Of a DNA stretch of 64,000 nt, positions 48,545 to 64,000 are shown one piece after another. The stretch is from the NCBI GenBank assembly GCA_013289615.1, contig JABCZO010000024.1, positions 1-64,000 of the forward strand. Direction: 5' to 3'. A program made the translations under genes and the position numbers. This stretch comes from Gammaproteobacteria bacterium. GTDB lineage: Bacteria; Pseudomonadota; Gammaproteobacteria; Steroidobacterales; Steroidobacteraceae. A model generated the notes under the pieces. That model did not search any database. It saw only the letters and a program-made list of their open reading frames with translations, and was not told the origin of the DNA. Each line of letters opens with the position of its first letter. Position 1 is the stretch's first letter.

Positions 48545-48557
48545 GCCGGGCGCGTGC

Positions 48558-49775
48558 TCAGTAATCCGCCGGCGGCGAGGCGCGGCGCCGTTCCGGTGCA
48601 AAGAACGGCCGCTCCACCACCTGTGCGCGCGCCATGCGCCGCTCCCACACCAGTTCGCGATTGAGATAGATCTCGGCCCAGACAGTGCTACCGGTCCGCA
48701 TGTGCGGCGCATCGACCATCGCCAGCGCGATATTGCGCTTGCAGGTGGGAGACCAGGTGGCGGAAGTGACGCTGCCGACCTGGTGCTTGCCGGCCTTGTC
48801 CGCATACAGCAACGCATTGTGCGCCGGCTTGTTGCCTTCGATGTCGAGCCCCACCAGCCGGCGGCGCGGCGCGCGCCGCTGCTCGTCGAACAGCGCACGC
48901 CGTCCGGTAAAGTGGCCCTTGTTGAAGTCGACCAGCCATCCCAGCCCGAGCTCAATCGGCGTGCGCTCGGTGCCGAACCTCAAGCTGCGCTCGCTGGAGA
49001 CGAAATCGACGTTGGGCAGCACGAACCCCGCCTCGATCCTTGCCATGTTCAAGGCACGCGAACCGATCGGGCGAATGGCGCACTCGCGCCCCGCGTCCAT
49101 CAGCGCATCCCATACGCTCTCGGCATCCTCCGGTCGCATCCATAACTCGTAGCCCAGATCCCCGGTAAAGCCGGTGCGCGACACCATGATCTGGCTACCG
49201 GCACCCAGCGCCGGCGGCAGCGCGAACCAGGCCAGCTCGAAGGGCTTGAGCTGCGCGATCCCGGACAGGCCAAAGGCCGTGAGCACGGCGCACGAGGTCG
49301 GACCCTGCACGGCCAGGGCTGCGGTCTCGTCGGTCACTTCGGTTATCTGCACGTCGAAGCCTAGACCGGAGTCGAGCAGCCAGTCGAGCTGTCTTTCACC
49401 GCTACACAGCCGGAACTCGGTGTCGCTCAGGCGAAACACCGTGCCGTCGTCGATCAGGTGGCCGTCGTCGTTGCACCACACGCTGTAGGCCACCCGGCTA
49501 TGCTTGAGCTTGCCGATATCGCGCGTCATCAGGCGATTCAGATAGGGCAGTGCGTCGTGCCCGGCAATCCGGTATTTCACCATCGGTGTCAGATCGTAGA
49601 GCGTGGTGGCGTTTCGGATCGCAAAGTACTCCTGCTCCACGAACGTGAACACGTCCACCGTGGTGTAGCCCGCCCAGGCGATGAAACTGTCCACCTGGCT
49701 GAGTGCGCGTGCACGTTCGTGAAACGGCGTCTTCAGCAGCGGCTGACGATAGTGCGGTTCGCTCTCGCTGAGCAT
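48558..49775 (-). CDS. GcvT-family (aminomethyltransferase-like) protein
   Basis: 405 residues from ATG 49775, two bases after the upstream gene's stop, with GAGGCGGCC before it. Folate-binding GcvT fold: DLTPMVKYRIAGHDALPYLN, LAVQGPTSCAVLTAFG, VSRTGFTGDLGYELWM, a C-terminal GcvT_C part (RRRLVGLDIEGNKPAHNALL). Relatives are glycine-cleavage T protein, dimethylglycine and DMSP demethylases, which pass one-carbon units to tetrahydrofolate. Fits demethylation of a methylated amine in this locus; the precise substrate is not readable. Confidence 0.88.
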   Translation of the reverse strand: MLSESEPHYRQPLLKTPFHERARALSQVDSFIAWAGYTTVDVFTFVEQEYFAIRNATTLYDLTPMVKYRIAGHDALPYLNRLMTRDIGKLKHSRVAYSVWCNDDGHLIDDGTVFRLSDTEFRLCSGERQLDWLLDSGLGFDVQITEVTDETAALAVQGPTSCAVLTAFGLSGIAQLKPFELAWFALPPALGAGSQIMVSRTGFTGDLGYELWMRPEDAESVWDALMDAGRECAIRPIGSRALNMARIEAGFVLPNVDFVSSERSLRFGTERTPIELGLGWLVDFNKGHFTGRRALFDEQRRAPRRRLVGLDIEGNKPAHNALLYADKAGKHQVGSVTSATWSPTCKRNIALAMVDAPHMRTGSTVWAEIYLNRELVWERRMARAQVVERPFFAPERRRASPPADY

Positions 49776-49777
49776 CG

Positions 49778-51358
49778 TCAGGCCGCCTCGCGAATGAGAG
49801 CGCGCGCGGCATTGCGGCCCGCGATGCCCATGACGCCGCCGCCGGGGTGACAACCGGCCCCGCACAGGTACAGCCCGCCTAGTGGCGTGCGATACTGGGA
49901 CGCACCTGGCACCGGTCGCACGATGAAGAACTGATCGAGCGCCAGCTCGGCGTGATGCCAGTGTCCGCCGCTGATGCGAAACTGCCGCTCGATGTCGGGC
50001 GGAGTCAGCAGCTCCGCGGATTCGACGCTGGCGCGCAACCCGGGTGCACAGCGCTCGAGCGCATCGATGATCAGATCCGCGAAGCGCGCGCGCTCGTGCT
50101 GCCAGCCGGCGGCAAGCTCATAAGGCGCGTACTGCACCACCGCCGAGAGCACATGCCCGCCGGCCGGCGCCAGGCTCGCGTCGCTGGCGGTCGGCACGGT
50201 AATTTCGATGATTGGCTGCGAGGAGAACTCCCGATACTTGGCGTGATTGAAGGCACGCTCGATGTAATCCAGCGACGGCGCCAACAGCAACCGCCCGATC
50301 AGGGCGCTGTGCGGCAAACCGGTGAACTGCGGCAGCCGATTCAATGCCAGATGCAGCTTGGCAGTCACGCCGTGCGCGCGCAGATGCGCGATGCGGCGGA
50401 CGAAGCCGGTGTCGAGGTACTCCACACCCAGCAGCTGCAGAAAAGTCGTCTTCGGGTCGGCGTTCGAGATGACATTGGCGGCACTGATCTGCTCGCCGGA
50501 CTCGAGCACGACGCCAGCAGCGCGATCGTTTTGCACCAGGATTCGCCGCACCACGGTAGCGGTGCGGATCGCGCCCCCGGCCGCCAGCACGGCTCTGGCC
50601 AAGGCATCAGACAACGCCCCGAGGCCGCCCACCGGTTGCGCCAGCGCGCTGCCGCCCTGCACTTCGGCGGCCATCCGGTACAGCAGCGGAAACACGCTTC
50701 CCGGGGATCGGGGACCGGCGCGGGTACCCAGCACCGCATCGAATCCGAGCGCGCCCTTGAGCAGCGGCGTCTCGAAGTGTTCGTCCAGCAGATCCTGGAC
50801 GCACATGCCGCCGATGCGCAGCAGTTCGCGCATGTCGCGGCGTCCGAGCCGGCGTATGCGCCAACCGATGCGCAGCCATGACAGTCGGGCCTGCCAGGAG
50901 TCGGTCCCCAGTCGCGGCGGCACGCGGTCGAGCACCGGATGCAGCGCTTCGGCCAACCGCCGCAACCGCGCGTGATAGGCCGGAAACGCCGCGGCGTCGG
51001 CGCCCGATCGCCCCGCGAGCACCGCCGGGTTATCCGGGTTGATCGGTAGTGGCGACTGGTCGGGTGCGATCGCAGTGGTCGGCATGCCGGTCGCGGCCAT
51101 CTGCAGTCCGCGGCTGTCGAGCCCGAGGTCCCTGATCATGGATCCGGGCATCAGATGCAACAGGTGCGCACAGGCGGAAACCTTGAAGCCCGGTGCGAAT
51201 TCGCGCGTGACCGCGGCGCCGCCGACCTGGTTCGCCGCCTCCAGCACCAGCACGGAACGCCCGCTGCGCGCCAGATAGGCGGCACACACCAGCCCATTGT
51301 GACCCCCGCCGATGACGATGCAATCGTAGTCCGGAGCCCCGACTGCAGCGCCCGCCAT
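49778..51358 (-). CDS. phytoene-dehydrogenase-like FAD oxidoreductase (copy 1)
   Basis: 526 residues from ATG 51358. FAD-binding Rossmann motif YDCIVIGGGHNGLVCAAYLA and VLVLEAANQVGGAAVTREFA at the N-terminus, second nucleotide motif GGLGALSDALARAVLAAGGA, C-terminal YLCGAGCHPGGGVMGIAGRN. Same superfamily as carotenoid desaturases and amine oxidases, but no carotenoid genes are near. A paralogue follows immediately upstream, three bases away. Confidence 0.88.
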   Translation of the reverse strand: MAGAAVGAPDYDCIVIGGGHNGLVCAAYLARSGRSVLVLEAANQVGGAAVTREFAPGFKVSACAHLLHLMPGSMIRDLGLDSRGLQMAATGMPTTAIAPDQSPLPINPDNPAVLAGRSGADAAAFPAYHARLRRLAEALHPVLDRVPPRLGTDSWQARLSWLRIGWRIRRLGRRDMRELLRIGGMCVQDLLDEHFETPLLKGALGFDAVLGTRAGPRSPGSVFPLLYRMAAEVQGGSALAQPVGGLGALSDALARAVLAAGGAIRTATVVRRILVQNDRAAGVVLESGEQISAANVISNADPKTTFLQLLGVEYLDTGFVRRIAHLRAHGVTAKLHLALNRLPQFTGLPHSALIGRLLLAPSLDYIERAFNHAKYREFSSQPIIEITVPTASDASLAPAGGHVLSAVVQYAPYELAAGWQHERARFADLIIDALERCAPGLRASVESAELLTPPDIERQFRISGGHWHHAELALDQFFIVRPVPGASQYRTPLGGLYLCGAGCHPGGGVMGIAGRNAARALIREAA

Positions 51359-51360
51359 GA

Positions 51361-52965
51361 TCAATGCGTCCGGCCGAGGTCGCGCAGAATGGCGCCGGCG
51401 GCGTTGGCGCCGGGCGCGCCCATCACGCCGCCGCCCGGATGAGTGCTCGAGCCGCACATGTACATGCCGCGCACCGGCGCGCGGTACTGGGCGTAACCCG
51501 GAATCGGCCGATTGAACAGCAGTTGATCGAAGGTCAGCTCACCCTGGAAGATATTGCCCTCCGTCAGCCCGACCTCTTTCTCCAGATCCCAGGGCGTGCG
51601 GATCTCAGCATGCAGGATCAGGTCCTTGAAGTCCGGGCTGTGCTCGGCGATGGTGTCGATGACGGTGCGGCCAAAGGCCGCTCGTTTGGCCGCATCCCAC
51701 TCGCCGTCGGCCAGTTTGTAGGGACAGTACTGCACGAACACCGACATGTAGTGCTTGCCGCTTGGCGCCAGGGTCGGATCGATCTGCGAGGGCATCAGCA
51801 TATCGATGTACGGCGCGCGCGACCAGCGGCCTTCCTTCCAGTCATCGTAGGCGCGCTCGAGCATCTCGATGCTGTCGGTCACGTGCAGGTCACCGCGGAT
51901 GCTGGGCGAGCCGTGCGGGATGGCGGGAAAGTGCGGTAGTGCGTCGAGCGCGATATTGAGTTTACCCGACGAGCCGCGGATCTTGAAGTTACGCACCTGC
52001 GACACGAACTCGTCGGGCAGGTCGCCGGCGTCCATGATGTCGAGAAAAGTGCGGCGCACGTCGAGATTGGACACCACGATGCCGGCCTGAATCTCCTCGC
52101 CATCGGCCAGCACCACACCGCCTGCCCGCCCAGCCCGCACCAGGATCTGATCGACCGGCGCGCTGCTGCGGATCTTGCCGCCACTGGCCTGGAACGAGGC
52201 GGCGAGCGCCTGCGTGACGGCGCCCATGCCGCCGCGGGCGAATCCCCAGGCGCCGACCGCGCCGTCGATATTGCCCATGTAGTGATGCAGCAGTACATAG
52301 GCCGTTCCCGGTGAGCGCGGACCGAGCGCGGTGCCGATGATCGAGCTGCCTGCCAGGTGCGCCTTGATGATCTCGCTGTCGAAATATTCGTCCAGGAAGT
52401 CGGCGCAGCTCATGGTCCAGAAGCGCACCGTCTCGTACATGCGCTGCTCGCCGAGGCGGTGAAAATGCTTGCCAAGGTACAGCAGTTCCATGATGTCACG
52501 CGGCTTGAACGAGGTCGGATCGGGCGGCTCGCGCAGCAGCAACGGCTTGATGAAGCGGCATTGGCGCAGCATGTCGCGCAGGTAGCGCTCGTAACTCTCG
52601 GCATCGCGCCTGGAGTGCCGGGCGATCTCGCGGCGCAGGGCATCGTGGTTGTCGTACAGTGCCAGGTGCCCACCATCGCGCATCATGGTACAGCCGCCCT
52701 CGTACGGAATGATCTGCAGGCCATAACCGGGCAGGTTCAGCTCGCGAATGATCTCGGTGCGCAGCAGGCTGCACACGTACGAGCAGTTGGAGTAGGTAAA
52801 GCCGTCGTACAGGCTGCGGCTGACCGCCGCGCCGCCGACGTACGGGTTACGCTCGAGCACCAGCACGTCCAGTCCGGCGCGCGCCAGATAGCAGGCCGCG
52901 ACCAGGCCGTTGTGGCCGGCACCGACGATGATCGCATCATGGCGCGCGCTGCCGCCGCTGCCCAT
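51361..52965 (-). CDS. phytoene-dehydrogenase-like FAD oxidoreductase (copy 2)
   Basis: 534 residues from ATG 52965 (AGGGG upstream). HDAIIVGAGHNGLVAACYLA and VLVLERNPYVGGAAVSRSLY at the N-terminus, GGMGAVTQALAASFQASGGK in the middle, YMCGSSTHPGGGVMGAPGAN near the end, matching the neighbouring copy motif for motif. The pair may form a heterodimer or catalyse successive oxidations. Same strand and tight spacing with GcvT-like and aminotransferase genes. Confidence 0.88.
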   Translation of the reverse strand: MGSGGSARHDAIIVGAGHNGLVAACYLARAGLDVLVLERNPYVGGAAVSRSLYDGFTYSNCSYVCSLLRTEIIRELNLPGYGLQIIPYEGGCTMMRDGGHLALYDNHDALRREIARHSRRDAESYERYLRDMLRQCRFIKPLLLREPPDPTSFKPRDIMELLYLGKHFHRLGEQRMYETVRFWTMSCADFLDEYFDSEIIKAHLAGSSIIGTALGPRSPGTAYVLLHHYMGNIDGAVGAWGFARGGMGAVTQALAASFQASGGKIRSSAPVDQILVRAGRAGGVVLADGEEIQAGIVVSNLDVRRTFLDIMDAGDLPDEFVSQVRNFKIRGSSGKLNIALDALPHFPAIPHGSPSIRGDLHVTDSIEMLERAYDDWKEGRWSRAPYIDMLMPSQIDPTLAPSGKHYMSVFVQYCPYKLADGEWDAAKRAAFGRTVIDTIAEHSPDFKDLILHAEIRTPWDLEKEVGLTEGNIFQGELTFDQLLFNRPIPGYAQYRAPVRGMYMCGSSTHPGGGVMGAPGANAAGAILRDLGRTH

Positions 52966-53022
52966 TCCCCTACCCCTCATTCAATGGCGACTATTCAATG
53001 GCGACCGATCAGTGCCGCTCAA

Positions 53023-54351
53023 TCAGGCCGGCATCCTGCGCGACTTTCCCAGCGCGTCGAGCGTCGTGTCCATCGCCACCTCGAACGCCGCCAGCGTGTC
53101 ACGCAGGCACGAGTCATCGTGCGCCGCCGAAACGAACCACGGCTCGCGCGAATCCGGTTCGCACAGGATACGTTCATCGTGCAGCACCCTGGCGGCCGCA
53201 TCGTAGAACGTATAGTCGCTGCCCTTCCAGTCGCGGTAGGTACGCGGCGGCTCGTGCGCAAAGTACAGCCCGCTCATCGACGCATGGCCAACAAAGCTGT
53301 GCGCGATGCCGCGCGCCTTGAGTATCGTGCTCATTCCGGTGCGCAGCCGGGTGCCATAGGCAGCAATGCGCTCCAGCGCATCGGTTTCGTCCAGAATCTG
53401 CAGCGTCTTCTCCGCCGCGGCCAGCGATACCGGGTGAGCCGTGTAGGTGCCCCCGTGCGCGACGCCGCGACCGATCTTGCGCATGATGTCCTCGCGCCCG
53501 GCCAGCACCGAGATCGGGTAGCCATTGGCGATCGCCTTGGCGAAGGTGCACAGGTCGGCCTGCACCCCGTACAGCTCCTGCACCCCGCCACGGGCGACGC
53601 GAAAGCCGGTCTTCACCTCGTCGATGATCAGCACCACGCCGTGCCGGTCGCACAACTCGCGCGCCGCGCGGATGTAGGCCGGATCGGCCGCGATCCCCAG
53701 GCAGTTGCCCATGATCGGCTCGATCAGCAGGCAGGCAATCGAGCCGGCATGGCGCTTGAGCACGTCCTCGAGCTGATTGGCGTCGTTGGCCTGGACAAAA
53801 TGGGCGAAATTGCGCGAACTGAGCGGCACTCCCTCGCTGTAGGGAACCACGTCGGGCTCTCCGACCTGGGCCCATTTGTCCATCGGCGTGTACCACATGG
53901 CGGCATCGAACAGCCCGTGATAGCTGCCCTCCAGAATGACGTAGTCGTCCTTGCCGGTATAGGCACGCGCCAGCCGCAGTGCCGCCATGACCGCCTCGGT
54001 GCCGGAGTTGGAGAAACGCACCAGCTGCGCGGCCGGCACCATCTTCGCAATACGTTCCGCGACGCGGTATTCGCATTCGGTGGACAGCGCGAATACACCG
54101 CCGATCTGCATGCCCTCGCGCGCCGCCTGATCGACGCGCGCATCGGCGTAGCCCAGGATGGCCGGGCCATAGCCCATGCGGTAGTCGACGTAGACGTTGT
54201 CGTCGAGGTCGGTCACCCGGGCGCCGCGACCGGATTTCACGTAGATCGTGCGCTCCTCGCCCCAGTAGCGGAAATTGGAGGCGACGCCCAGCGGCATGCG
54301 CTTGACGGCGCGCTGGAAATGTTCGTGGTTTTTGGTCAGGGTTCGGGGCAT
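53023..54351 (-). CDS. class III aminotransferase (glutamate-1-semialdehyde aminomutase-like)
   Basis: 442 residues, PLP-dependent. N-terminal HFQRAVKRMPLGVASNFRYW, PLP-phosphate region SNSGTEAVMAALRLARAYTG and EGSYHGLFDAAMW, cofactor Asp in VVLIIDEVKTGFRVARGG, Schiff-base Lys in TFAKAIANGYPISVLAGRED, GGTYTAHPVSLAAA. Resembles HemL and omega-amino acid transaminases; in this context an omega-transaminase on a diamine or amino acid is likelier than heme synthesis. First gene of the minus-strand run, divergent from the Rieske gene. Confidence 0.87.
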   Translation of the reverse strand: MPRTLTKNHEHFQRAVKRMPLGVASNFRYWGEERTIYVKSGRGARVTDLDDNVYVDYRMGYGPAILGYADARVDQAAREGMQIGGVFALSTECEYRVAERIAKMVPAAQLVRFSNSGTEAVMAALRLARAYTGKDDYVILEGSYHGLFDAAMWYTPMDKWAQVGEPDVVPYSEGVPLSSRNFAHFVQANDANQLEDVLKRHAGSIACLLIEPIMGNCLGIAADPAYIRAARELCDRHGVVLIIDEVKTGFRVARGGVQELYGVQADLCTFAKAIANGYPISVLAGREDIMRKIGRGVAHGGTYTAHPVSLAAAEKTLQILDETDALERIAAYGTRLRTGMSTILKARGIAHSFVGHASMSGLYFAHEPPRTYRDWKGSDYTFYDAAARVLHDERILCEPDSREPWFVSAAHDDSCLRDTLAAFEVAMDTTLDALGKSRRMPA

Positions 54352-54418
54352 GGCTGCGCTCCGCTCTACAGGGGGTGCCTGTACGGCACGGTAGCACTAC
54401 TTGCGCAACGCGTCTATA

Positions 54419-54460
54419 TGAACGTATAAATTTAGTGTAGAATTGAACAGTCGTATAAAT
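54419..54460. promoter_or_regulatory. divergent control region with direct repeats
   Basis: Between aminotransferase and Rieske genes. CGTATAAAT occurs at 54423-54431 and 54452-54460, each preceded by TGAAC (54419 and 54444). Both repeats contain TATAAA, so they may be -10 boxes, operators or both. CTAAATTTAT (minus strand, 54435-54426) resembles CTAAGTTTAT at 57415-57424 beside the regulator gene. Confidence 0.5.
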
Positions 54461-54488: not shown

Positions 54489-55655
54489 ATGAATAGCTCA
54501 GCCGCCCCGTCGGCCCCGCCCTCCGTCGCTGCACTGCCGCGGGCGCTGCCGGCGTGGGCCTACAGCCACCCGGAAATGACCCGCCTGGAATACGAGCGCA
54601 TCCTGAAGCCGAGCTGGCAGATCGTGTGTCACATCAGCTCGATCCCCAAGCCGGGCGACTACATGACGCTCGATCTGGGCGCCGACAGCGTGGTGGCCGT
54701 GCGTGGCGCCGACGGGTCGATCCAGACGTTCCATAACGTCTGCCGCCATCGCGGCTCGCGGCTGCTCGAGGGCGCGGGCAACTGCCGCGCCCATATCACC
54801 TGTCTGTATCACGGCTGGTCGTACCGGCTGTCGGGCGAACTGGTAGGGGTGCCCGCGCGCGATACCTTCCCGGGCCTCGATCGCACCCAGTTCAGCCTCA
54901 AGCCGGTGCGCTCGCAGGTGCTGCTGGGCTTCGTGTTCGTCTGCGTGGCCGGCAATCCGCCGCCGCTGGAGCAGACCTGGGGCAGTTTCCTGGCTGAATT
55001 TGCCCCGCATCGATTCGAGGACATGGTGCCGCTCGGCTCGTTCTACATCGAGCACTGGGATTGCGACTGGAAAATCGCGATGGACAACTACCTCGAGTCC
55101 TACCACGTTCCGATCGGACATCCCGGACTGAACCGGATGTTCACGCCCGACTACGACGATCAGGTCAATCTGCCGACCGGCGTAGCCCGCGGCATCAGCT
55201 GGATGCGCGAGCGCGAGTCGTCGCAGTGGAGCGAGCGCATGTACCAGCGCCTGGTCGCAGGGGTCAGCCAGGACCTGCCGGAAGCCCATCGTAAGCGCTG
55301 GAGCTTCTACAGCATGCTGCCGAACCTGGGCATCGACGTGTTTCCCGACCAGATGGATTTCTTCCAGGTGCTGCCGCGCGGTCCGGGCAAATGCACCATC
55401 CGCGGCAGCTCGTTTGCGCTGCCGGATGAGCGGCGGGAGATGCGTCTGGTGCGTTACCTGAGCGCACGCATCAACCGCCAGGTGCAGCGTGAGGACGAGT
55501 TTCTGTGCCGCCGAGTACAGCTCGGCCTGGCATCGGGCAGCTATGAGCCGGGGCCTTTGTCGCGGCTGGAGAACTGCATGTTCGAGTTTCACCAGCTGCT
55601 GCGCGAGCGCATTCCGGAAGTGCGCCTGGCCAGCGCGCCGGCGCGCTTCGCCTGA
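54489..55655 (+). CDS. Rieske non-heme iron oxygenase, alpha subunit
   Basis: 388 residues. Rieske centre in NVCRHRGSRLLEGAG and HITCLYHGWSYRL (Cys85, His87, Cys105, His108); mononuclear iron site in MDNYLESYHVPIGHPGLNR (His206, His211). Belongs to the group of single-component-type terminal oxygenases that includes glycine betaine, carnitine and stachydrine N-oxygenases. No ferredoxin reductase is in the window, so the electron donor must be elsewhere. Preceded by GCCGGAGG before ATG 54489. Tail-to-tail with the regulator that contains a related domain. Confidence 0.92.
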   Translation: MNSSAAPSAPPSVAALPRALPAWAYSHPEMTRLEYERILKPSWQIVCHISSIPKPGDYMTLDLGADSVVAVRGADGSIQTFHNVCRHRGSRLLEGAGNCRAHITCLYHGWSYRLSGELVGVPARDTFPGLDRTQFSLKPVRSQVLLGFVFVCVAGNPPPLEQTWGSFLAEFAPHRFEDMVPLGSFYIEHWDCDWKIAMDNYLESYHVPIGHPGLNRMFTPDYDDQVNLPTGVARGISWMRERESSQWSERMYQRLVAGVSQDLPEAHRKRWSFYSMLPNLGIDVFPDQMDFFQVLPRGPGKCTIRGSSFALPDERREMRLVRYLSARINRQVQREDEFLCRRVQLGLASGSYEPGPLSRLENCMFEFHQLLRERIPEVRLASAPARFA

Positions 55656-55664
55656 ATCGGCCCT

Positions 55665-57410
55665 CTAGACGACCCGCTCCGGCAGCGTCGGGATGGCGGG
55701 CAATAACGCCGTGATCGACTGGCGAAACTGCGCCAGCGGCCCGGTGCCCGGTGCGCCGTCGTCGAACTCATCGGCTGCACCGGCCAGCCCGGTCTGGGTG
55801 GACTCGGCCAGCGCGATTTCCTGTTGCAGCCAGGCGTTGAGCAGGCGCTGCCAGCCCACGAGCGCGGTGCGCGCTTGCGCGCCGCGGCTGTTTGGTGCGC
55901 GCGCACGCTGCGCGGCTGCGGCCAGCAGGTAGTCGAAGCGCTGGATGCGGCAACGCCCGGGTGCCACCGGGATGACCTGAAGAATCAGTGCCGCGTCACG
56001 CCGCAGCTCGAGCAACTGATTCGGCGGCAGGAACTGGCGCTGCGGCGCGGGCGCTTCCAGCCAGCGCTCGACGATCAGCTTCCAGTCGGCCGCCACCTCG
56101 ATCTGCTGCGCGCCGGCGGGCAACATGCGATCGAAGGCGCTCCAGTCGAATTCGGGGTCCGCCCCGTACCCCAGCGCCGCAGCCGCGCCGGCCGCGCGCA
56201 CCAGAATCAGCCGTCCGAATTGCTTCAGCTCGAGCGAACTCAGGTCGCCGGGGGTGTCGCCATCGACCAGCCGTCCGTCGAGCCGGTAAGTAAGACTGTG
56301 GGAGGCGCAGTGAATGGCGCCCTCGAAATGACCGCTGCGCGCGATGACCAGCGCGTGTGGCCGCCGGCGACAGGCATTGCGAAATGCGCGTAGCCGGCCG
56401 CGCTCATCGCGCACCACCAGCACCCGCTCGCCGGCCAGATCCCCGCTGAGAAAGTCCCCCGCCGCGGGGACTTCCGCATCGTGTCCGATGAACTGCCAGG
56501 CCGGTCGCAGCAGCCGATCGCGTTCGGCTGCCAGCAGCGCGGCGTGCGCGTAGGCCCACGCCGGCAGACGTGCGCTCGGCGCGGCCGCTTGATCCGCGGC
56601 GGCCGCGAGTGTGGTGGTGGGCCGCGGCGTCGGCAACGCAAGCGCTTCGCCGTTCGTCCGATCGGGCGGCGCGGCGGTGCGCGGCGCCGGAGCCGCCGGC
56701 TCGAACTGGCCTGGGAACACCGAGCGCAGGTAGGCCAGCGAGCGGCGCCTTGCGGCCGCGCGGTCGATGCTCGATTCGCTTTGGAAGGCGAATGTCTGCC
56801 ACAGGATTTCCAGCACGCCGATCAGCCCGAGAGCGATGCCGTCGCAATCCAGGTGCGCAGCGCCGCTCTGGGCGATCAACCGCTCGATCAGTTCGCGCAC
56901 CAGTGCGGCAAAATCCTCGTCTTTCTTGCCGCAGATGTCGTAGTACTCCTGGCGCGAGCTGGCCTCGCCCCAGAACGAATACCACACCGATACCTTGCGC
57001 GGACTGGCGATCTGCGGATCAAGATACAGCTCCACCAGCAACTCCAGCGCCTGCACCGGCGCGTGCCTGAGCTGGGACACCGGCAGCAGCACCCGCTGCT
57101 CGAATTCGGCTGCCAGGTACTCCAGTGATGCCACCAGCATCGCCGCCTTGGAGTCGAAGTAGAAGCGCACGATGCCGGGTGACAGGTCGGCGATCGCGAC
57201 CACCTTCGCCACCGTGGTGCGCGATGGCCCGTGAATGTGCAGCGCCGAAATACAGGCGTCGATCAGGCGCTGGCGCTGGCGGCTGCGTCCGGTCCGGCCG
57301 GGTGTCGCCTCGGCGCTGGCACGCTCGGCAGCGGCTGGCGGATTGGTTGGTCTGGCGCGTGACACGATCGTACCGGGGCTCACCGGTGCGAGCCGGCGAA
57401 AGTTGTACAC
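55665..57410 (-). CDS. BetI-like TetR regulator fused to a catalytically dead Rieske-oxygenase domain
   Basis: 581 residues if started at GTG 57410; GTG 57383 and 57365 are alternatives and no strong ribosome site decides. Residues 44-90 are a TetR helix-turn-helix (RSRQRQRLIDACISALHIHG, KVVAIADLSPGIVRFYFDSK), and 91-235 the BetI-type ligand domain (VWYSFWGEASSRQEYYDICG). After an Ala/Pro/Thr linker (236-280), residues 282-545 parallel the Rieske enzyme at 54489: LPAWAYAHA, RPAWQFIGHDAEVPAAGDFL, FRNACRRRPHALV, CASHSLTYRLDGRLV, DWKLIVERWLEAPAPQ, PVAPGRCRIQRF. One Rieske His is Arg349 (Cys347, Cys368 and His371 remain), and both mononuclear-iron His are replaced (NYLESYHVPIGH aligns with RWLEAPAPQRQF). 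So it probably cannot bind iron but could bind substrate. Divergent from the permease genes. Confidence 0.85.
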   Translation of the reverse strand: MYNFRRLAPVSPGTIVSRARPTNPPAAAERASAEATPGRTGRSRQRQRLIDACISALHIHGPSRTTVAKVVAIADLSPGIVRFYFDSKAAMLVASLEYLAAEFEQRVLLPVSQLRHAPVQALELLVELYLDPQIASPRKVSVWYSFWGEASSRQEYYDICGKKDEDFAALVRELIERLIAQSGAAHLDCDGIALGLIGVLEILWQTFAFQSESSIDRAAARRRSLAYLRSVFPGQFEPAAPAPRTAAPPDRTNGEALALPTPRPTTTLAAAADQAAAPSARLPAWAYAHAALLAAERDRLLRPAWQFIGHDAEVPAAGDFLSGDLAGERVLVVRDERGRLRAFRNACRRRPHALVIARSGHFEGAIHCASHSLTYRLDGRLVDGDTPGDLSSLELKQFGRLILVRAAGAAAALGYGADPEFDWSAFDRMLPAGAQQIEVAADWKLIVERWLEAPAPQRQFLPPNQLLELRRDAALILQVIPVAPGRCRIQRFDYLLAAAAQRARAPNSRGAQARTALVGWQRLLNAWLQQEIALAESTQTGLAGAADEFDDGAPGTGPLAQFRQSITALLPAIPTLPERVV

Positions 57411-57464: not shown

Positions 57465-58355
57465 ATGAAACCGATCGAGCGTCCGGGCCGCTGGCTCATC
57501 ATTCTGCCGCCGTTGCTGTTCCTGCTGATTTTCTTTCTCATTCCGTTCGTCTTCGCCTTCAAGATCAGCTTCGCCGACACCGCCGCGCGCGTGCCGCCGT
57601 TCACCGACATTCTGTCGACCACCCCCGATCATCACCTGCAATTCAGCCTGAGCCTGGGAAACTATCAGTACCTGTTTACCGACGAAGTCTACGGCGTAGC
57701 GTATCTGTACTCGCTCAAGACGGCATTCTTCTCGACATTGATCTGCCTGGTGCTTGGCTACCCGATGGCCTATGCGATCGCCCGGGCATCCAAGTCGACC
57801 CAGAACATCCTGCTGCTGATCATCATTCTGCCATTCTGGACCTCCTTTCTGCTGCGCGTTTATGCGCTCGAGGGCATCATCCGCGACAACGGCATACTCA
57901 ACACCGTCTTGCTGCACCTCGGACTCATTCACGAACCGCTCCGGATCATGCGCACCACGCTGGCGGTCTACCTCGGCATCATCTACTCCTATCTGCCATT
58001 CATGGTATTGCCGCTGTTCGCCACGCTGGAAAAGCTCGACCGCTCGTTGCTCGAGGCAGCCTCCGACCTTGGCAGCCCGCCGTGGCGGGTGTTTCTGGAC
58101 GTCACTCTGCCATTGTCGATCCCGGGTATCATCGCCGGCTCGCTGCTGGTGTTCATCCCCGCGGTCGGCGAGTTTGTCATACCGTCGCTGCTGGGCGGGC
58201 CAGACAGTCTGATGATCGGCCGCGTGCTATGGGATGAATTCTTCGGCAATCACGACTGGCCGGTGGCCTCGGCGGTCGCCATCGCGTTTCTGTTTCTGCT
58301 CGCCGGCCCGATCGCGATCTATCAGTACTACAACGTCAAGCAGCTCGAGGCCTGA
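57465..58355 (+). CDS. ABC transporter permease, PotB-like
   Basis: 296 residues, about six membrane helices starting WLIILPPLLFLLIFFLIPFV. The ABC permease EAA loop is EAASDLGSPPWRVFLDVTLP. A long periplasmic loop after the first helix (about 38-75) fits the PotB/FutB subfamily. Followed five bases on by the second permease. Confidence 0.92.
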   Translation: MKPIERPGRWLIILPPLLFLLIFFLIPFVFAFKISFADTAARVPPFTDILSTTPDHHLQFSLSLGNYQYLFTDEVYGVAYLYSLKTAFFSTLICLVLGYPMAYAIARASKSTQNILLLIIILPFWTSFLLRVYALEGIIRDNGILNTVLLHLGLIHEPLRIMRTTLAVYLGIIYSYLPFMVLPLFATLEKLDRSLLEAASDLGSPPWRVFLDVTLPLSIPGIIAGSLLVFIPAVGEFVIPSLLGGPDSLMIGRVLWDEFFGNHDWPVASAVAIAFLFLLAGPIAIYQYYNVKQLEA

Positions 58356-58360
58356 GCGGA

Positions 58361-59191
58361 ATGGAAAGGCGCTTTTCCCCGACACTACTCACCATCCTTT
58401 GCCTGGGCATCACGGTACTCTATCTGCCGATCCTGGTGCTGATCGCGTTCTCATTCAACGCCTCCCCACTGGTCAATGTGTGGGGCGGGTTCTCGACCGC
58501 CTGGTATTTTCAGCTGCTGCACAACCGCCAGCTGCTGCAGGCGGCGCTGCTGTCGCTGGAGGTCGCCGTCACCGCCTCGACCGCCGCGGTAGTGCTGGGG
58601 ACCATGGCGGCGATTGCGCTGGTGCGCTTTGCCCGGTTTCGCGGCAGGTTGCTGTTGACCGGCATGGTGAACGCGCCGTTGGTGATGCCGGAGATCATCA
58701 CCGGCATCACGCAGCTACTACTGTTCGTGTCGATGTTGCAGATGTTTGGCTGGCCGCACCGCGGCTTCACCACCATCGTGCTCTCGCACGTGGCCTTTTG
58801 CTCCGCGTATGTGACCATCACCGTGCAATCGCGCCTGCAAACGGCCGATCGCTCGCTGGAGGAGGCGGCGATGGATCTTGGCTCCGGCCCGGCGCGCGCC
58901 TTCCTGGAAATCACACTGCCGATTCTGATGCCGGCTATCCTCTCGAGCTGGTTGCTGAGCTTCACCCTGTCGCTCGACGATCTGGTGATCTCGAGCTTCG
59001 TTTCAGGGCCGGGGGCCAGCACGCTGCCGATGGTGATCTATTCCAAGGTCAAGCTAGGCGTCAGCCCCGATGTCAATGCGCTCGCCAGCCTGATCATCTG
59101 CGCCGTCGGCGCCTGTGTGATCAGCGCCGGCTACTTCATGCGTCGCGCCGATCAGCGACGGGCGCTGGAGATGCAGATGGCCGAGCGCTGA
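58361..59191 (+). CDS. ABC transporter permease, PotC-like
   Basis: 276 residues, six helices, with EAAMDLGSGPARAFLEITLP as the EAA loop and LSLDDLVISSFVSGPGA typical of PotC. Partner of the preceding gene. It ends four bases from the convergent HD-domain gene. Confidence 0.92.
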   Translation: MERRFSPTLLTILCLGITVLYLPILVLIAFSFNASPLVNVWGGFSTAWYFQLLHNRQLLQAALLSLEVAVTASTAAVVLGTMAAIALVRFARFRGRLLLTGMVNAPLVMPEIITGITQLLLFVSMLQMFGWPHRGFTTIVLSHVAFCSAYVTITVQSRLQTADRSLEEAAMDLGSGPARAFLEITLPILMPAILSSWLLSFTLSLDDLVISSFVSGPGASTLPMVIYSKVKLGVSPDVNALASLIICAVGACVISAGYFMRRADQRRALEMQMAER

Positions 59192-59194
59192 CGC

Positions 59195-59776
59195 TCAGGC
59201 CATCGGGCCGGATAGGTAGCGCGGATCGTGAGGCGTCCGACCGAGGATCTTGCGTACCAGCGGCTCGAACGCCTCCAGTGGCCGTACCGGATAGTCCGGA
59301 TCGAATGACGCCTGATCCCAGCGCTCGCAGAACGCCGCGCAGGCCGCATACCACTGATGGCCCTTGAAGCGATCCCGGCCGTTGCGATTGCCACCCAGAT
59401 GGTGCACGTAATAGTAATTCTGGAATAGTCCGTGCTGCTCGACGATCCAGCTAACCTCGGCTCGCACGTAGGGCCTGATGATGGCCGCCGCGAATTCCGC
59501 ATGATTGTACGGTGCCAATTCATCGCCGATATCGTGGATGAGTGCCGCGAGAATCAGCTCGTCGTCGGCGCCATCGGCCAGTGCGCGCGTCGCCACCTGC
59601 AGCGAATGTCCCAGCCGGCTGACCGGATAGCCCGCGAGCGAATGATCGAGCCGGCGCAAGGCCTCAAGCACGCGATCGGGCAGGCCGACGGCGTAGTCGC
59701 GCTCCGATTGGTCGAGCAGCAGGTAATCCGCGCGGGTTCCGTCCTGCATCCTGCGAAAACTGACCCTCTGGCTCAT
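59195..59776 (-). CDS. HD-domain protein related to PhnZ/TmpB di-iron oxygenases
   Basis: 193 residues. HD-type metal ligands in order: His57 (LGHSLQ), His81-Asp82 (LIHDIGDELAPYNH), His92, His115 (VEQHGLFQ) and Asp154 (CERWDQASFD). The ERWDQA stretch resembles the RRWDDA of PhnZ. The gene overlaps the 2OG oxygenase gene by four bases. That pair recalls TmpA/TmpB, in which a 2OG enzyme hydroxylates a trimethylammonio-ethylphosphonate and the HD enzyme cleaves it to glycine betaine and phosphate. Assignment by analogy; a plain HD hydrolase is the alternative. Confidence 0.65.
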   Translation of the reverse strand: MSQRVSFRRMQDGTRADYLLLDQSERDYAVGLPDRVLEALRRLDHSLAGYPVSRLGHSLQVATRALADGADDELILAALIHDIGDELAPYNHAEFAAAIIRPYVRAEVSWIVEQHGLFQNYYYVHHLGGNRNGRDRFKGHQWYAACAAFCERWDQASFDPDYPVRPLEAFEPLVRKILGRTPHDPRYLSGPMA

Positions 59777-60945
59777 CGCACGGTCTCCTTCACGCCCGCC
59801 TGCCGCCGTCGCAGTACCCGATACAGGCTGCGCGGCCCGTCGATGTCGATGTAGCAGCCCTGGAGGTGCCGCAACCCTTGAGCCGGATCGAAACCGGTGC
59901 GCCCGTGCAGCAGCCGCCGATTATCCATCATCACGAGCTCGCCGGCATCCAGCAGGAAGCGGATCTCGAACTCCGGTGAGCGCAGCAGATGATCGAATGC
60001 GCGCCGCGCACGATAGTACTGCGCCAGCTCCGCCGGCGGCTGCAGCGGCACGAAATCCAGCCGCGGACTGAAGTGCACCGCCTGCACCCGGCCGGTCACG
60101 TCGAGCTCGATCGGCGGTGCGCTCGCCACGAGGTCGGTCGCGGCGTCCCGATAGCGAAAACGCACCGCAGTCTGCGACAGCAGCCGGAACGCCTCGCCGT
60201 CGCGCGCCCGCAGCGCCTCGGCGGCCGCAAAGCCATCCACCAGTGTCGACAAGCCGCCCGACGTCTGGTTGACGAGGCAGTGCAGCAGTTGCACGCCGGG
60301 CACCGGCCAGCGGTACGGATTATCGGTGTGTGGATCCAGCGGCACGGCGGTGTATGCCAGGTCGCTGGCCTCGGGTGTCGAGCGCACGTCGAACAGCGCA
60401 CCAAAATTCGTCTCGCGGATAAATCCGAACAACGCTGCGACGCGAAGTATGTCGCCGGGCTGCGTCGGCACGCCCGCGAAGATGATAAACCCAAGTTCCA
60501 GGAACTGCGCCAGCCAGTCGGCGCGCTCGGCATCACCTGGCTCGCCGTTCCAGCGGCAGCGCGCGCCGAACTGGAGCGAGGAATTCCACAGCCTGGGCGC
60601 GGGCAGGTCGTGGTCGCCAGGGCGCAGCGCCGCCTCGGCCAGGATGTCGCGCTCCAGCAAATCGGCCTGATGCCCGTCGCTGAACAGCAGGCGAAACTTC
60701 CCGGGCTCCAGTTGTGTCACCGCACGCAGTGCCAGCCGCGGATCCAGGTCCGATGGGTCCTGCAGCCGCTGTCCGGTGCGCAGGTCGAGCGTACTCGCGT
60801 CCTGGCAGCGCTCGCGCAGCCACAGCGGGTGGATCGAATAGCGCTGTCCATCCGCCTGCTCAATCGTCAGTTCATTGCCGGCGCTCGCGCGCACGCGCGC
60901 GGTCGGCTCAGCGGCGGCAGCAGGGCTTGGGGTTGGCGAGGGCAT
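59773..60945 (-). CDS. gamma-butyrobetaine/trimethyllysine dioxygenase-like 2OG oxygenase
   Basis: 390 residues from ATG 60945, four bases after the binding-protein stop. N-terminal DUF971-like domain (LTIEQADGQRYSIHPLWLRE, RTGQRLQDPSDLDP) and a TauD-type catalytic domain with VPLDPHTDNPYRWPVPGVQL (His, Asp) and MMDNRRLLHGRTGFDP (His), 2OG-binding Arg in GLRHLQGCYIDIDGPRS. The N-terminal domain keeps only one Cys (RERCQDAS) where human BBOX1 has a zinc site, so zinc is probably not bound. Substrates of the family carry trimethylammonium groups. Confidence 0.83.
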   Translation of the reverse strand: MPSPTPSPAAAAEPTARVRASAGNELTIEQADGQRYSIHPLWLRERCQDASTLDLRTGQRLQDPSDLDPRLALRAVTQLEPGKFRLLFSDGHQADLLERDILAEAALRPGDHDLPAPRLWNSSLQFGARCRWNGEPGDAERADWLAQFLELGFIIFAGVPTQPGDILRVAALFGFIRETNFGALFDVRSTPEASDLAYTAVPLDPHTDNPYRWPVPGVQLLHCLVNQTSGGLSTLVDGFAAAEALRARDGEAFRLLSQTAVRFRYRDAATDLVASAPPIELDVTGRVQAVHFSPRLDFVPLQPPAELAQYYRARRAFDHLLRSPEFEIRFLLDAGELVMMDNRRLLHGRTGFDPAQGLRHLQGCYIDIDGPRSLYRVLRRRQAGVKETVR

Positions 60946-60949
60946 CGGA

Positions 60950-62059
60950 TCAGCGCGCCGTCTTGATCCGGGTCCAGGTACGGGTGCGGATGCGCTCCAG
61001 TGCCGGGTTGACTTCGGCGGATTCATACAGCCGCGCTGCCGTTTCCGCCGTCGGGTAGATCGCCGGATCATTCAGGATCTTCGGATCAACGTACGGGGTC
61101 GACGCCAGATTGTCGTTGCCGTAGTGAATCTCGTTGGTGATCTCGGCGATCACGGTCGGCTCCAGTATGAAATCAAGGAACCGGTGCGCAGCGTCCGGAT
61201 GCGGCGCGTCGATCGGAATCAGCAGCGCGTCGAACGAGGCATTGGCGCCCTCCTTGGGAACGGTAAAGGCCAGGTTGACGTCGACGCCGGCGGCCTTGGC
61301 GCGCGCCCGGGCCGCCGCATAGTCGCCGGACCAGGACATCGAGATGCAGAACTCCTTGTTGCCCAGGCCGTTCATATACTCGCTCGAGTCGAAGGCGCGA
61401 ATATAGGGACGCACCGCGAGCAGCAACTTCTCGGCGCGCTTGTAGTCATCGGGATCAGTGGTATTCGGATCAAGGTGCAGGTAGTTCAGCGCAAGTTGCA
61501 GCACGTCCTCTGCCTGATCCAGAAACGACACGCCGCAATCGGCGAAACGCGCGATGATCTGCGGCTTGAAGATCATGTCGAGGCTGTCGAGCGGTGCATC
61601 GGGCATGCGGGCCTTGATCATGTCGACATTGTAGGCAAAGCCGTTGACGTGGCGCAGGTACGGCATCGCGTACTGGTTGCCCGGATCAGCCCCGGCTTCG
61701 ATCTTGAGCACCTGCGGATCAAGGTTCTTCCAGTTCGGCAGTTTGCTGCGATCCAGCTTCTGGTAGATGCCGGCCTTGATCTGCCGGCTGAAGAAATCGG
61801 TCGAGGTACTCACGACATCGTAGCCCGAGTCGCCCGCCATCATCTTGGCTTCCAGGGTTTCGTCGGCGTCGTAGGTGTCGTAGACGACCTTGATGCCGGT
61901 GCGGTTTTCAAACTTGGTCAGCGTGTTCTTGCCGATGTAGTCGGACCAGTTATAGATGTTCACCACCTTGGCCTCGCCACCCCCGTGACCGGAACCGCAA
62001 CCGCTCAGCGCCGCGCCGATCAGCAGCAGCGCCGCGGGCAAGCCAGGGCGTGCAGCCAC
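60950..62059 (-). CDS. polyamine/betaine-type ABC substrate-binding lipoprotein (PotD/PotF-like)
   Basis: 369 residues starting with GTG 62059; lipobox LSGC (signal AALLLIGAALSGC). VVNIYNWSDYIGKNTLTKFE is the PotD hallmark, with TGIKVVYDTYDADETLEAKM and YDVVSTSTDFFSRQ. Aromatic and acidic pocket residues such as WSD and DSSEY fit a cationic ligand. Partner of the permeases at 57465-59191 and the ATPase at 47399. Same operon as the aldehyde dehydrogenase and the 2OG oxygenase. Confidence 0.9.
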   Translation of the reverse strand: MAARPGLPAALLLIGAALSGCGSGHGGGEAKVVNIYNWSDYIGKNTLTKFENRTGIKVVYDTYDADETLEAKMMAGDSGYDVVSTSTDFFSRQIKAGIYQKLDRSKLPNWKNLDPQVLKIEAGADPGNQYAMPYLRHVNGFAYNVDMIKARMPDAPLDSLDMIFKPQIIARFADCGVSFLDQAEDVLQLALNYLHLDPNTTDPDDYKRAEKLLLAVRPYIRAFDSSEYMNGLGNKEFCISMSWSGDYAAARARAKAAGVDVNLAFTVPKEGANASFDALLIPIDAPHPDAAHRFLDFILEPTVIAEITNEIHYGNDNLASTPYVDPKILNDPAIYPTAETAARLYESAEVNPALERIRTRTWTRIKTAR

Positions 62060-62062
62060 GCT

Positions 62063-63487
62063 CTATAACCTCACCATCACATGCCGCGGCACGCTGTAGT
62101 CCTCGAGTGCATACACCGACAGGTCCTTGCCATAGCCCGAACGCTTGAAGCCACCGTGCGGCATCTCGCTGACGCCCGCAAAGTGGGTATTGATCCAGGT
62201 GCAGCCGTACTGCAGCCGGGCAGCCACCTGCATGCCGCGGGCGATGTCGCCGGTCCACACCGACGAGGCCAGTCCGTACTCGGAGTCGTTCGCCCAGCGC
62301 ACCGCATCGTCCGCTTCGGTGAATCGGGTGATCGACACCACCGGCCCGAACACTTCGCGCTGCACGATCTCGTCGGTCTGCAGCGCGCCGGCGACAATCG
62401 TCGGCTCGTAGAAAAACCCCGCGCCGGCGCGCGCCTTGCCGCCGGTGGTGATCTGCATGTGCGGTTCGGCGGCCGCGCGCGTTACGAACGCGGCCACGCG
62501 CTCGCGTTGCGCGTGCGAGACCAGCGGCCCCATTTCGACGCCGGGCTCCTGCTGCCGACCGACCTTGATGGTGCGCACCGCCTGCGTCAGGTCGGCAACG
62601 AGACGGTCGTAGACGCGCTCGCCGACATACATGCGACAGGCGGCGGTGCAGTCCTGGCCGGCGTTGTAGAAGCCAAAGCCGCGGATGCCCGAGATCACCT
62701 CGGCAATATCGGCGTCATCGAATACGATCACCGGCGCCTTGCCGCCCAGCTCCAGATGGGTGCGCTTGAGGTTGCCGGCAGCCGCCGCCAGCACCTTCTG
62801 GCCGGTCGCGACGGACCCGGTCAGCGACACCATGCGCACCCGCGGGTGCGCCACCATGGTCGTGCCGACCGGATCGCCGAGCCCGCAGACCACATTGACC
62901 ACGCCGGCCGGCAGCAGCTCGGCGAACAGCCCCGCCAGCATCAACGCGGTCAGCGGCGTCTGCTCGGAGGGCTTGAGCACCATCGTGTTGCCGGCAGCGA
63001 TCGCAGGCGCAATCTTCCAGGCCGCCATCATCAGCGGATAATTCCAGGGCGCGATCGAGGCCACGACGCCGATCGGGTCGCGCCGCACGAAGCTGGTGTG
63101 GCCCGGCAGGTACTCGCCCGCGAGCGGACCGTGCTGGGTGCGCGCCGCGCCGGCAAAAAACCGGAACACGTCGGCGATCGCCGGCATTTCATCGTTCAGC
63201 GCCGCGTTCAGCGGCTTGCCGGTGTTGTGCGACTCCAGCGCCGCATAAGCCTGCGCCTCGGCCTCGAGGCGATCGGCGATTTTCAACAGCAGCGCGGCGC
63301 GATCCTTAGGCGAGGTTTGCGCCCAGCCCTCGAACGCCTGCTCCGCCGCCGCCACTGCGGCATTGACCTGCGCGGTACTGGCCGAGGCGACCGCCGCGAT
63401 CGCGGCCCCGCTGGCCGCATCCAGCACCTGCTCGACCGGCCCCTCGCCGGCAACCAGCCGGCCGCCGATCAACATCTGTGTCTGCAT
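62063..63487 (-). CDS. aldehyde dehydrogenase, gamma-aminobutyraldehyde/betaine-aldehyde type
   Basis: 474 residues from ATG 63487, behind GGAGGACACTAC. NAD-binding and catalytic motifs: [44 protein letters not shown] (Glu), [15 protein letters not shown] (Cys). Resembles PatD/Prr and TMABA dehydrogenases, which act on aminated aldehydes. Upstream gene of the binding-protein operon, hence likely oxidises an aldehyde made in this pathway. Confidence 0.9.
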
Positions 63488-63650
63488 GTAGTGTCCTCCG
63501 AGCCGCCCGGTGTGGCGTCGTGCGCACCGCCATGCGCGCCCGCGCCGCACCGCACGACTTGCCGCAGTGTCGCTCATTATTATATTATCGACTGCATAAT
63601 ATTTACCAGCCGCGGGCTTGCACGCCCGTGAAACCCAATCGAGGGCCGTC

Positions 63651-64000
63651 ATGAACCAGGACGTCTTCATCACCTGCGCCATTACCGGCGACGACACCAA
63701 CGTCACCAAGAGCCCGCACTGCCCCATCACCCCGGAACAGATCGCGGCCGCGGCGGTGGATGCGGCCACCGCCGGTGCGGCCATCGTGCACATTCATGTG
63801 CGTGAGCCAGAGACCGGCGCCTTCAGCATGGAGACCCGCCACTACCGCGAGGTGGTGAAGCGGATTCGCGACAGCAAGGTCGACGTGATCGTCAACCTGA
63901 CCTGCGGCATGGGTGGCTATATCGTCGTTGGCGATCGCGGACTGGAAAACACGCCGGCGCCGGGCAGCGACTTCTGCAGCCAGGAACAGCGCATGCGCCA
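63651..64000 (+). CDS. beta-keto acid cleavage enzyme (BKACE), 3' end cut by window
   Basis: ATG 63651 with GAGG before it; 116 codons to the window end. [52 protein letters not shown] (zinc His-x-His), and [13 protein letters not shown] match the DUF849/BKACE family, which condenses a beta-keto acid with acetyl-CoA. Members include 3-keto-5-aminohexanoate and dehydrocarnitine cleavage enzymes. Divergent from the aldehyde dehydrogenase. Fits breakdown of a betaine-like compound. Confidence 0.88.

Follow-up and report, generated by a model that had tools for sequence, protein, structure and literature searches.

BetI is a choline-binding repressor of the TetR family, and PutA is a trigger enzyme in which a ribbon-helix-helix domain is combined with proline dehydrogenase. 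In BzdR, a helix-turn-helix domain is joined to a shikimate-kinase-like domain, an enzyme-derived effector domain (PMC3602430). In the tetralin system, a Rieske ferredoxin, ThnA3, reduces the regulator ThnY, preventing induction in vain (PMC4814904).

In this study, a TetR-Rieske fusion gene was analysed in a stretch of 64,000 nucleotides from a gammaproteobacterium of the family Steroidobacteraceae (the window). Fusions of the window's kind are called type A, and a second set is called type B. The window protein resembles BetI in its TetR_C_6 domain and its methylated-amine gene setting, but it scores 67.2 bits against the curated BetI equivalog cut-off of 201.3 and carries an additional tail. 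This kind of fusion is already known, because BzdR also joins a DNA-binding domain, through a linker, to an enzyme-derived domain without catalysis (PMC3602430). Compared with BzdR, the folds differ, the DNA-binding half of the fusion has a ligand domain of its own, the enzyme pocket is deleted and a set of residues resembling a metal site is kept. Since the pocket segment is deleted, BzdR-like effector binding by the tail is unlikely. The likeness to ThnA3 and ThnY would be that a Rieske-type redox protein informs a catabolic regulator (PMC4814904); those are separate proteins, whereas the fusion has the Rieske part built into one chain. Type B recalls PutA in that a repressor and an active-looking enzyme appear to share one chain and that a palindrome lies upstream of the gene encoding them, but TetR and a Rieske oxygenase take the place of ribbon-helix-helix and proline dehydrogenase. 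CntA and stachydrine demethylase are the best structural matches of the modelled tail, which differs from them in having neither iron site nor pocket segment; 46/53 type A proteins also lack the canonical Rieske His. No TetR-Rieske fusion was found in the open-access literature searched; as far as that literature extends, the novelty lies in the pairing, in a precursor that looks active and in the shift of metal-site residues.

The fusion gene, its neighbourhood and its relatives

The fusion is encoded by a single open frame without internal stops, in which the TetR half runs into an oxygenase-like tail (Table 1), and conservation of the protein begins at about residue 38. TetR_C_6 scores 48.3 bits against a cut-off of 27, which places the protein among the TetR regulators. 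The TetR_N score of 22.1 bits is just below the cut-off of 24, as is that of the relative at L039 (21.5); L045 (27.6) and L048 (24.2) exceed it. In the tail, Pfam also matched Ring_hydroxyl_A at residues 461-564 (E 1.1e-6).

The initial annotation had described one uninterrupted frame of TetR plus Rieske tail, and both the open frame and the Pfam domains bear this out. Comparison with the neighbouring oxygenase confirmed the landmarks that it had listed (LPAWAY, CASH/CLYH and PGRCRIQ/PGKCTIR). It also confirmed that Arg349 occupies the position of the first Rieske His and that HVPIGH is lost. A sequencing or assembly join of two genes is ruled out, because many independent assemblies carry this same fusion. 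The proteome search that had been suggested for this architecture also spoke for a genuine, conserved fusion, with 55 of the 69 fetched TetR orthologues fused. Support was thus found for a genuine fusion that has lost catalytic residues and lies beside a gene it probably controls. Three features had been overlooked: a near-invariant His three residues past Arg349, an older-looking class of fusions whose active site is intact, and an operator-like palindrome.

Table 1. Positions in the window of the fusion gene, its parts and the neighbouring genes
Feature	Position	Strand	Evidence or remark
PotA-type ABC ATPase	47399..48550	-	family search
GcvT/TMAO-demethylase-like protein	48558..49775	-	family search
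CrtO-like FAD oxidoreductase 1	49778..51367	-	family search, neighbourhood
CrtO-like FAD oxidoreductase 2	51361..52980	-	family search, neighbourhood
Class-III aminotransferase, first gene of divergent set; likely target	53023..54351	-	family search, neighbourhood
Predicted operator TATATGAACGTATA, one mismatch	54415..54428		between divergent oxygenase and aminotransferase genes
Intact Rieske oxygenase alpha subunit, 388 aa, GbcA/CntA/stachydrine-demethylase-like; likely target	54489..55655	+	convergent with fusion gene
TetR-Rieske fusion gene	55665..57410	-	581 aa from GTG (putative start); conserved from ~57299
Shortened oxygenase catalytic domain, residues 404-575, iron ligands lost here	55686..56201	-	alignment
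Rieske-like domain, residues 284-400	56211..56561	-	Pfam Rieske 305-391, E 3.9e-11; pLDDT mostly >90
His371, kept in 53/53 type A	56298..56300	-	alignment; Asp in two type A tails outside family
Cys368, kept in 52/53 type A	56307..56309	-	alignment
His352 (Cys+5), kept in 52/53 type A	56355..56357	-	alignment
Cys347, kept in 52/53 type A	56370..56372	-	alignment
Linker, residues 241-281, unconserved, mostly disordered in model	56568..56690	-	identity 0.168 over 241-276; pLDDT
TetR_C_6, BetI-type ligand/dimer domain, residues 118-232	56715..57059	-	Pfam E 1.3e-12
TetR_N helix-turn-helix, residues 50-94	57129..57263	-	Pfam E 1.3e-4, 22.1 bits
PotB/PotC-type permeases, divergent from fusion gene	57465..59191	+	PotB by family search; PotC label by eye
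TmpB-like HD protein and TmpA-like 2OG dioxygenase	59195..61071	-	2-trimethylaminoethylphosphonate type, both below equivalog cut-offs
PotF/PotD-like substrate-binding protein and aminobutyraldehyde/betaine-aldehyde-type dehydrogenase	60950..63793	-	family search

The cluster, whose transporter genes are of the PotABCD type, probably acts on a quaternary or methylated amine. The placement of the permease genes next to the TetR gene is conserved across the compared loci, and in most loci the fetched stretch also contains a partner oxygenase gene. A TmpA-like gene was found in 6 and a TmpB-like gene in 32 of 78 compared stretches, many of which are short. A search for a partner reductase in the window's assembly, which is 83% complete, returned one FAD_binding_6 match, on another contig. 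Elsewhere in the window, one protein combines a TIR domain with TPR repeats (29329-31422, minus strand), and another combines a lipase maturation factor with an N-terminal DCC1-like thiol-disulfide domain (27438-29285, minus strand).

Relatives were sought among 60 related genomes, 217 genomes of the host's family and 84,980 species genomes (best 80 of 150 matches kept). The first search yielded a full-length fusion in G004 with 75% identity to the window protein, along with numerous others. In the largest collection, type A proteins among the best 80 of 150 matches came from metagenome-assembled genomes (MAGs) titled Gammaproteobacteria, Proteobacteria or Steroidobacteraceae, and from one Acetobacteraceae and one Elstera. 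In a sample of 396 genomes of the order, the matches listed contained no additional type A fusion from beyond the family. The 69 loci fetched were those with a TetR half clearly orthologous to that of the window. Besides the fused proteins, 8 were tail-less and 6 were truncated, frameshifted or stopped. Across the 53 fusion proteins of the type A alignment, mean pairwise identity was 0.867 in the helix-turn-helix (residues 44-92) and 0.67 in the TetR ligand domain (93-240); in the tail it was 0.41 for the Rieske part, 0.23 for the next stretch and 0.36 for the remainder.

The tail-less proteins formed two separate clades among the fused ones (SH-aLRT 100 and 96) in a quick tree, several intervening branches of which are weak. 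One row of this tree, G184, is the unfused TetR of that genome, and the type A counts are unaffected. Because of these two clades, the tail was probably lost at least twice. The oxygenase gene was still adjacent in 7/8 tail-less loci, and in the eighth the contig ends there. Two truncated fusions of one genus (L046 8920-9912 and L128 52-1077, both minus strand) retain 93-100 residues after the TetR half. These remnants had no Rieske match by BLAST or, for L046, by Pfam, a Rieske-like remnant being discernible by eye in L046; both tails are apparently in the process of loss. In two other loci (L221 5788-7104 and L222 5935-7026, both plus strand), the same TetR, about 65% identical, continues at the same junction into a different C-terminal stretch of about 135-155 residues without a Pfam match. 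To the eye this stretch is presumably nuclease-like, and the pair apparently represents a domain swap at the tail junction.

The predicted operator

The palindrome TATATGnnCATATA occurred within two mismatches, often twice, in 45/47 oxygenase-aminotransferase promoters including that of the window, a count that is partly circular because the pattern was derived from those same promoters. G158 and G163, both fused, had no such match. In G120, which was not used for the derivation, the oxygenase lies on another contig, with two one-mismatch sites at the 5' end. The window site precedes the oxygenase ATG by 60 nt and the aminotransferase start by 63 nt, and is one of only two sites with at most one mismatch in the 3.76 Mb assembly. 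Across the 968 kb of fetched loci, 72/76 matches fell in the oxygenase-aminotransferase region; of the other four, two were upstream of oxygenases with the aminotransferase beyond the stretch, one preceded a type B gene and one was elsewhere. From this distribution we infer that the fusion protein binds the palindrome, which is its predicted operator and makes binding and induction testable. Autorepression by type A was rejected, the palindrome being found in none of the 61 TetR-potB regions.

Perfect sites were kept in the tail-less relatives (7/7 readable). The tail appears not to be needed for DNA recognition or repression, because the tail-less clades retain both the palindrome and the oxygenase; on this comparison it is accessory.

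A wider regulon was not supported. In 14 genomes, 36 sites with at most one mismatch were counted (1-4 per genome), 18 at the oxygenase gene and 18 elsewhere, and the latter barely exceed the 12 of a reversed control. At this stringency, 13/14 genomes had a site at the oxygenase gene and G134 did not. In G150, two one-mismatch sites (L238 3949-3983) precede, by 28-62 nt, the first ATG of a frame of the MTTB trimethylamine-methyltransferase type, a pair that is suggestive of a methylated-amine regulon.

A related palindrome (core ATGnnCAT, at most two mismatches) occurred 67-146 nt before the conserved TetR start in 12/14 type B genes, against 0.25 expected, although the pattern itself was taken from these very genes. 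These genes may possibly be self-repressing oxygenases.

Lost catalysis and a candidate metal site in the tail

The AlphaFold2 model of the fusion had a mean pLDDT of 89 and a pTM of 0.61, with a confident tail and a linker whose pLDDT was below 50 at residues 242-246 and 248-271 (model residues 205-209 and 211-234). The TetR half matched TetR structures (best Z 19.8). The tail best matched stachydrine demethylase (Z 27.3, 294 residues, 3.1 A) and CntA (Z 27.2, 282 residues, 2.6 A), scores that place it in the fold of Rieske oxygenase alpha subunits.

The 2-His-1-carboxylate iron site is not retained in type A. By comparison with 69 intact oxygenases, His206 was found in 1/53, His211 in 0/53 and Asp336 in 10/53 type A proteins; two other residues conserved in oxygenases, Trp110 and Cys99, were each found in 0/53. 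In Rieske oxygenases, the two His and the Asp bind iron, and the Cys and His of C-x-H and C-x2-H are the cluster ligands. The stretch from Glu203 to Pro278, which holds the HxxxxH motif, measures 71-75 residues in oxygenases (those longer than 350 aa compared) and 10-65 (median 37) in type A, where it is hypervariable and a few rows are cut by contig ends. It is only 10 residues long in the window protein and in 16 other type A proteins.

The tail had been called dead, a description that did not hold, since type A proteins almost always keep two Cys and two His that could form a metal site. Only 9 of the 258 well-filled tail columns were conserved in at least 52/53 proteins, and Cys347, His352, Cys368 and His371 are among those nine. 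Of the Rieske cluster-ligand set (C-x-H ... C-x2-H), the first His is absent in 46/53 proteins, including the window's, where it is Arg349, and retained in only 7/53; the other three are kept. The position of His352 (Cys+5) was Ala in 38, Thr in 12 and Ser in 4 of the 54 readable unfused partner oxygenases, one partner cut short being left out, and never His. The two-Cys, two-His set (C-x4-H, C-x2-H) is a possible new metal-site arrangement in a Rieske fold, to judge from the alignment. His at Cys+5 is also present in 11/14 type B tails and in CntA, and His352 may be structural because it stands there beside the canonical His. The Asp that replaces His371 in two type A tails outside the family speaks against a strict two-Cys, two-His rule. 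G098 is the sole type A protein without the first motif, owing to a local deletion.

The tail is under purifying selection, weaker than that on the TetR half in most pairs, and it evolves faster. Between the window and G004, dN/dS was 0.17 in TetR, 0.11 in the Rieske part, 0.29 in the remaining tail and 0.45 in the linker (dS 0.5-0.7, linker 1.3). In the two closest pairs, the corresponding values were 0.09, 0.21, 0.42 and 0.33 (G079/G082) and 0.09, 0.29, 0.40 and 1.03 (G020/G138). Over the 25 closest pairs listed, values of 0.11-0.93 were obtained for the Rieske part and of 0.26-1.02 for the remaining tail; saturation is likely. Complete decay of the tail is disfavoured by these ratios and by the invariant columns.

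Origin and possible roles of the tail

Type B proteins are 32-38% identical to the window protein (best segment, where measured). They were found in the host's family (G001, G022, G184, G185 and G187), in another family of the order (G286), in three further families of the class (G560, G780 and G653), in MAGs titled Gammaproteobacteria (L229 and L233) or Pseudomonadota (L225), and in Alphaproteobacteria (two Inquilinus limosus strains and one Hyphomicrobiales MAG). All of C-x-H, C-x2-H, HxxxxH and the Asp were kept in 15/15 aligned type B proteins, and one type B model matched CntA with Z 36.7 over 339 residues at 2.3 A. By these sequence and model features, type B proteins look like a repressor and an active quaternary-amine oxygenase in one chain.

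In a tree of the oxygenase parts, type A formed one clade (100/99) inside a clade with 11/14 type B rows (99/97), apart from the partner oxygenases. The tail had been taken for a copy of the pathway's own oxygenase. A duplicate of the neighbouring gene is disfavoured by this grouping with TetR-fused oxygenases; forcing type A together with the unfused partners costs 17 log units, a weak rejection (AU p 0.074). In the TetR tree, type A plus type B as one clade was neither supported nor rejected (AU p 0.337). More than one TetR-oxygenase fusion event is possible, because three of the 14 type B rows (L229, L233 and G653), which are without His at Cys+5, branch apart in the oxygenase tree.

Starting from the observed fusion, its conservation, the loss of catalytic residues, the palindrome pattern and purifying selection, we propose, with a probability of roughly 0.45, that the window protein represses a quaternary-amine cluster in the manner of BetI and takes a redox or iron input through a remodelled metal site (Fe-S or other) in its tail. 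Binder, ligand, metal and second input are inferred steps of this scheme. The TetR half would sit on the palindrome in the divergent oxygenase/aminotransferase promoter, and a methylated-amine ligand binding in the TetR_C_6 pocket would release it. A whole quaternary-ammonium-type Rieske oxygenase would have been fused earlier, giving a chain that was probably repressor plus enzyme, as in type B. The lineage of the window would have lost both iron site and substrate pocket but kept two Cys and two His, one His shifted by three residues. This site is proposed to be metal-bearing, with a Rieske-like [2Fe-2S] cluster or a different metal as the likeliest occupant, and the tail may serve as a second, dispensable input that reports iron supply, oxygen or redox state, or electrons from the reductase of the real oxygenase. 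The more specific picture, a self-repressing oxygenase that lost its catalytic function but was retained to sense metal or redox state through a re-registered Rieske-like centre (C-x4-H, C-x2-H), is put forward tentatively. If the two-input reading is true, the operon answers both a methylated-amine inducer and the supply of iron, oxygen or electrons.

The tail could also be a waning remnant of an older chain of repressor and enzyme, either tolerated or of slight structural use and without a signalling role; this would agree with the 8 tail-less and 6 truncated or broken proteins among the 69, with the nesting of two tail-less clades among fused proteins, and with tail identities of 0.41, 0.23 and 0.36 against 0.67-0.87 in TetR. 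Such a relic is nevertheless doubtful, as the four potential ligands are near-invariant while the remainder drifts, the fold is confidently predicted, and dN/dS of the Rieske part is low in the two closest pairs and lower in the window pair. Oxygenase alpha subunits form trimers, and the tail might instead dock on the real oxygenase or its reductase and signal by direct contact, not through a metal of its own, how much enzyme is present or how electrons flow. The nearby partner gene in most loci and a fold kept without its pocket fit this idea, but docking alone leaves the invariant Cys and His unexplained and is unlikely. The same conservation could reflect a disulfide between the two Cys or structural zinc held by the four residues, acting as a thiol switch or fold clamp; the structure of a zinc-bound Rieske protein has been solved (PMC10492824). 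A disulfide would not need strictly conserved His, and we consider this explanation quite improbable.

The initial annotation had proposed that the dead copy of the enzyme recognises the pathway substrate, by way of its pocket, so that the regulator senses what its target oxidizes. The homology of the tail to quaternary-amine oxygenases and the precedent of BzdR, in which an enzyme domain became an effector domain (PMC3602430), are in its favour. The basis for such a sensor is removed because the pocket segment is largely deleted, to 10 residues here and to hypervariable lengths in type A against 71-75 in oxygenases. Pocket conservation is absent, an outcome that the initial annotation had itself named as refuting the sensor idea. 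The TetR half also has an intact, far more conserved BetI-type ligand domain of its own, and the tail is dispensable; sensing of the substrate through the tail is hardly credible. A remodelled metal site as second input is the reading we prefer.

How an enzyme becomes part of a regulator has so far mostly been argued from single cases. Here, a present-day series runs from overlapping genes through fused, active-looking and fused, stripped proteins to loss of the tail. In G001 (L054 9052-10949, minus strand), the TetR stop codon overlaps the likely ATG of the next oxygenase (ATGA) and the open frames overlap by 28 bp, an arrangement that is plausibly a pre-fusion state. Two further loci (L235 6636-10061, plus strand; L236 7114-10316, minus strand) carry a type B fusion and, as the very next gene, a second oxygenase that is unfused, a tandem of repressor-enzyme and enzyme.
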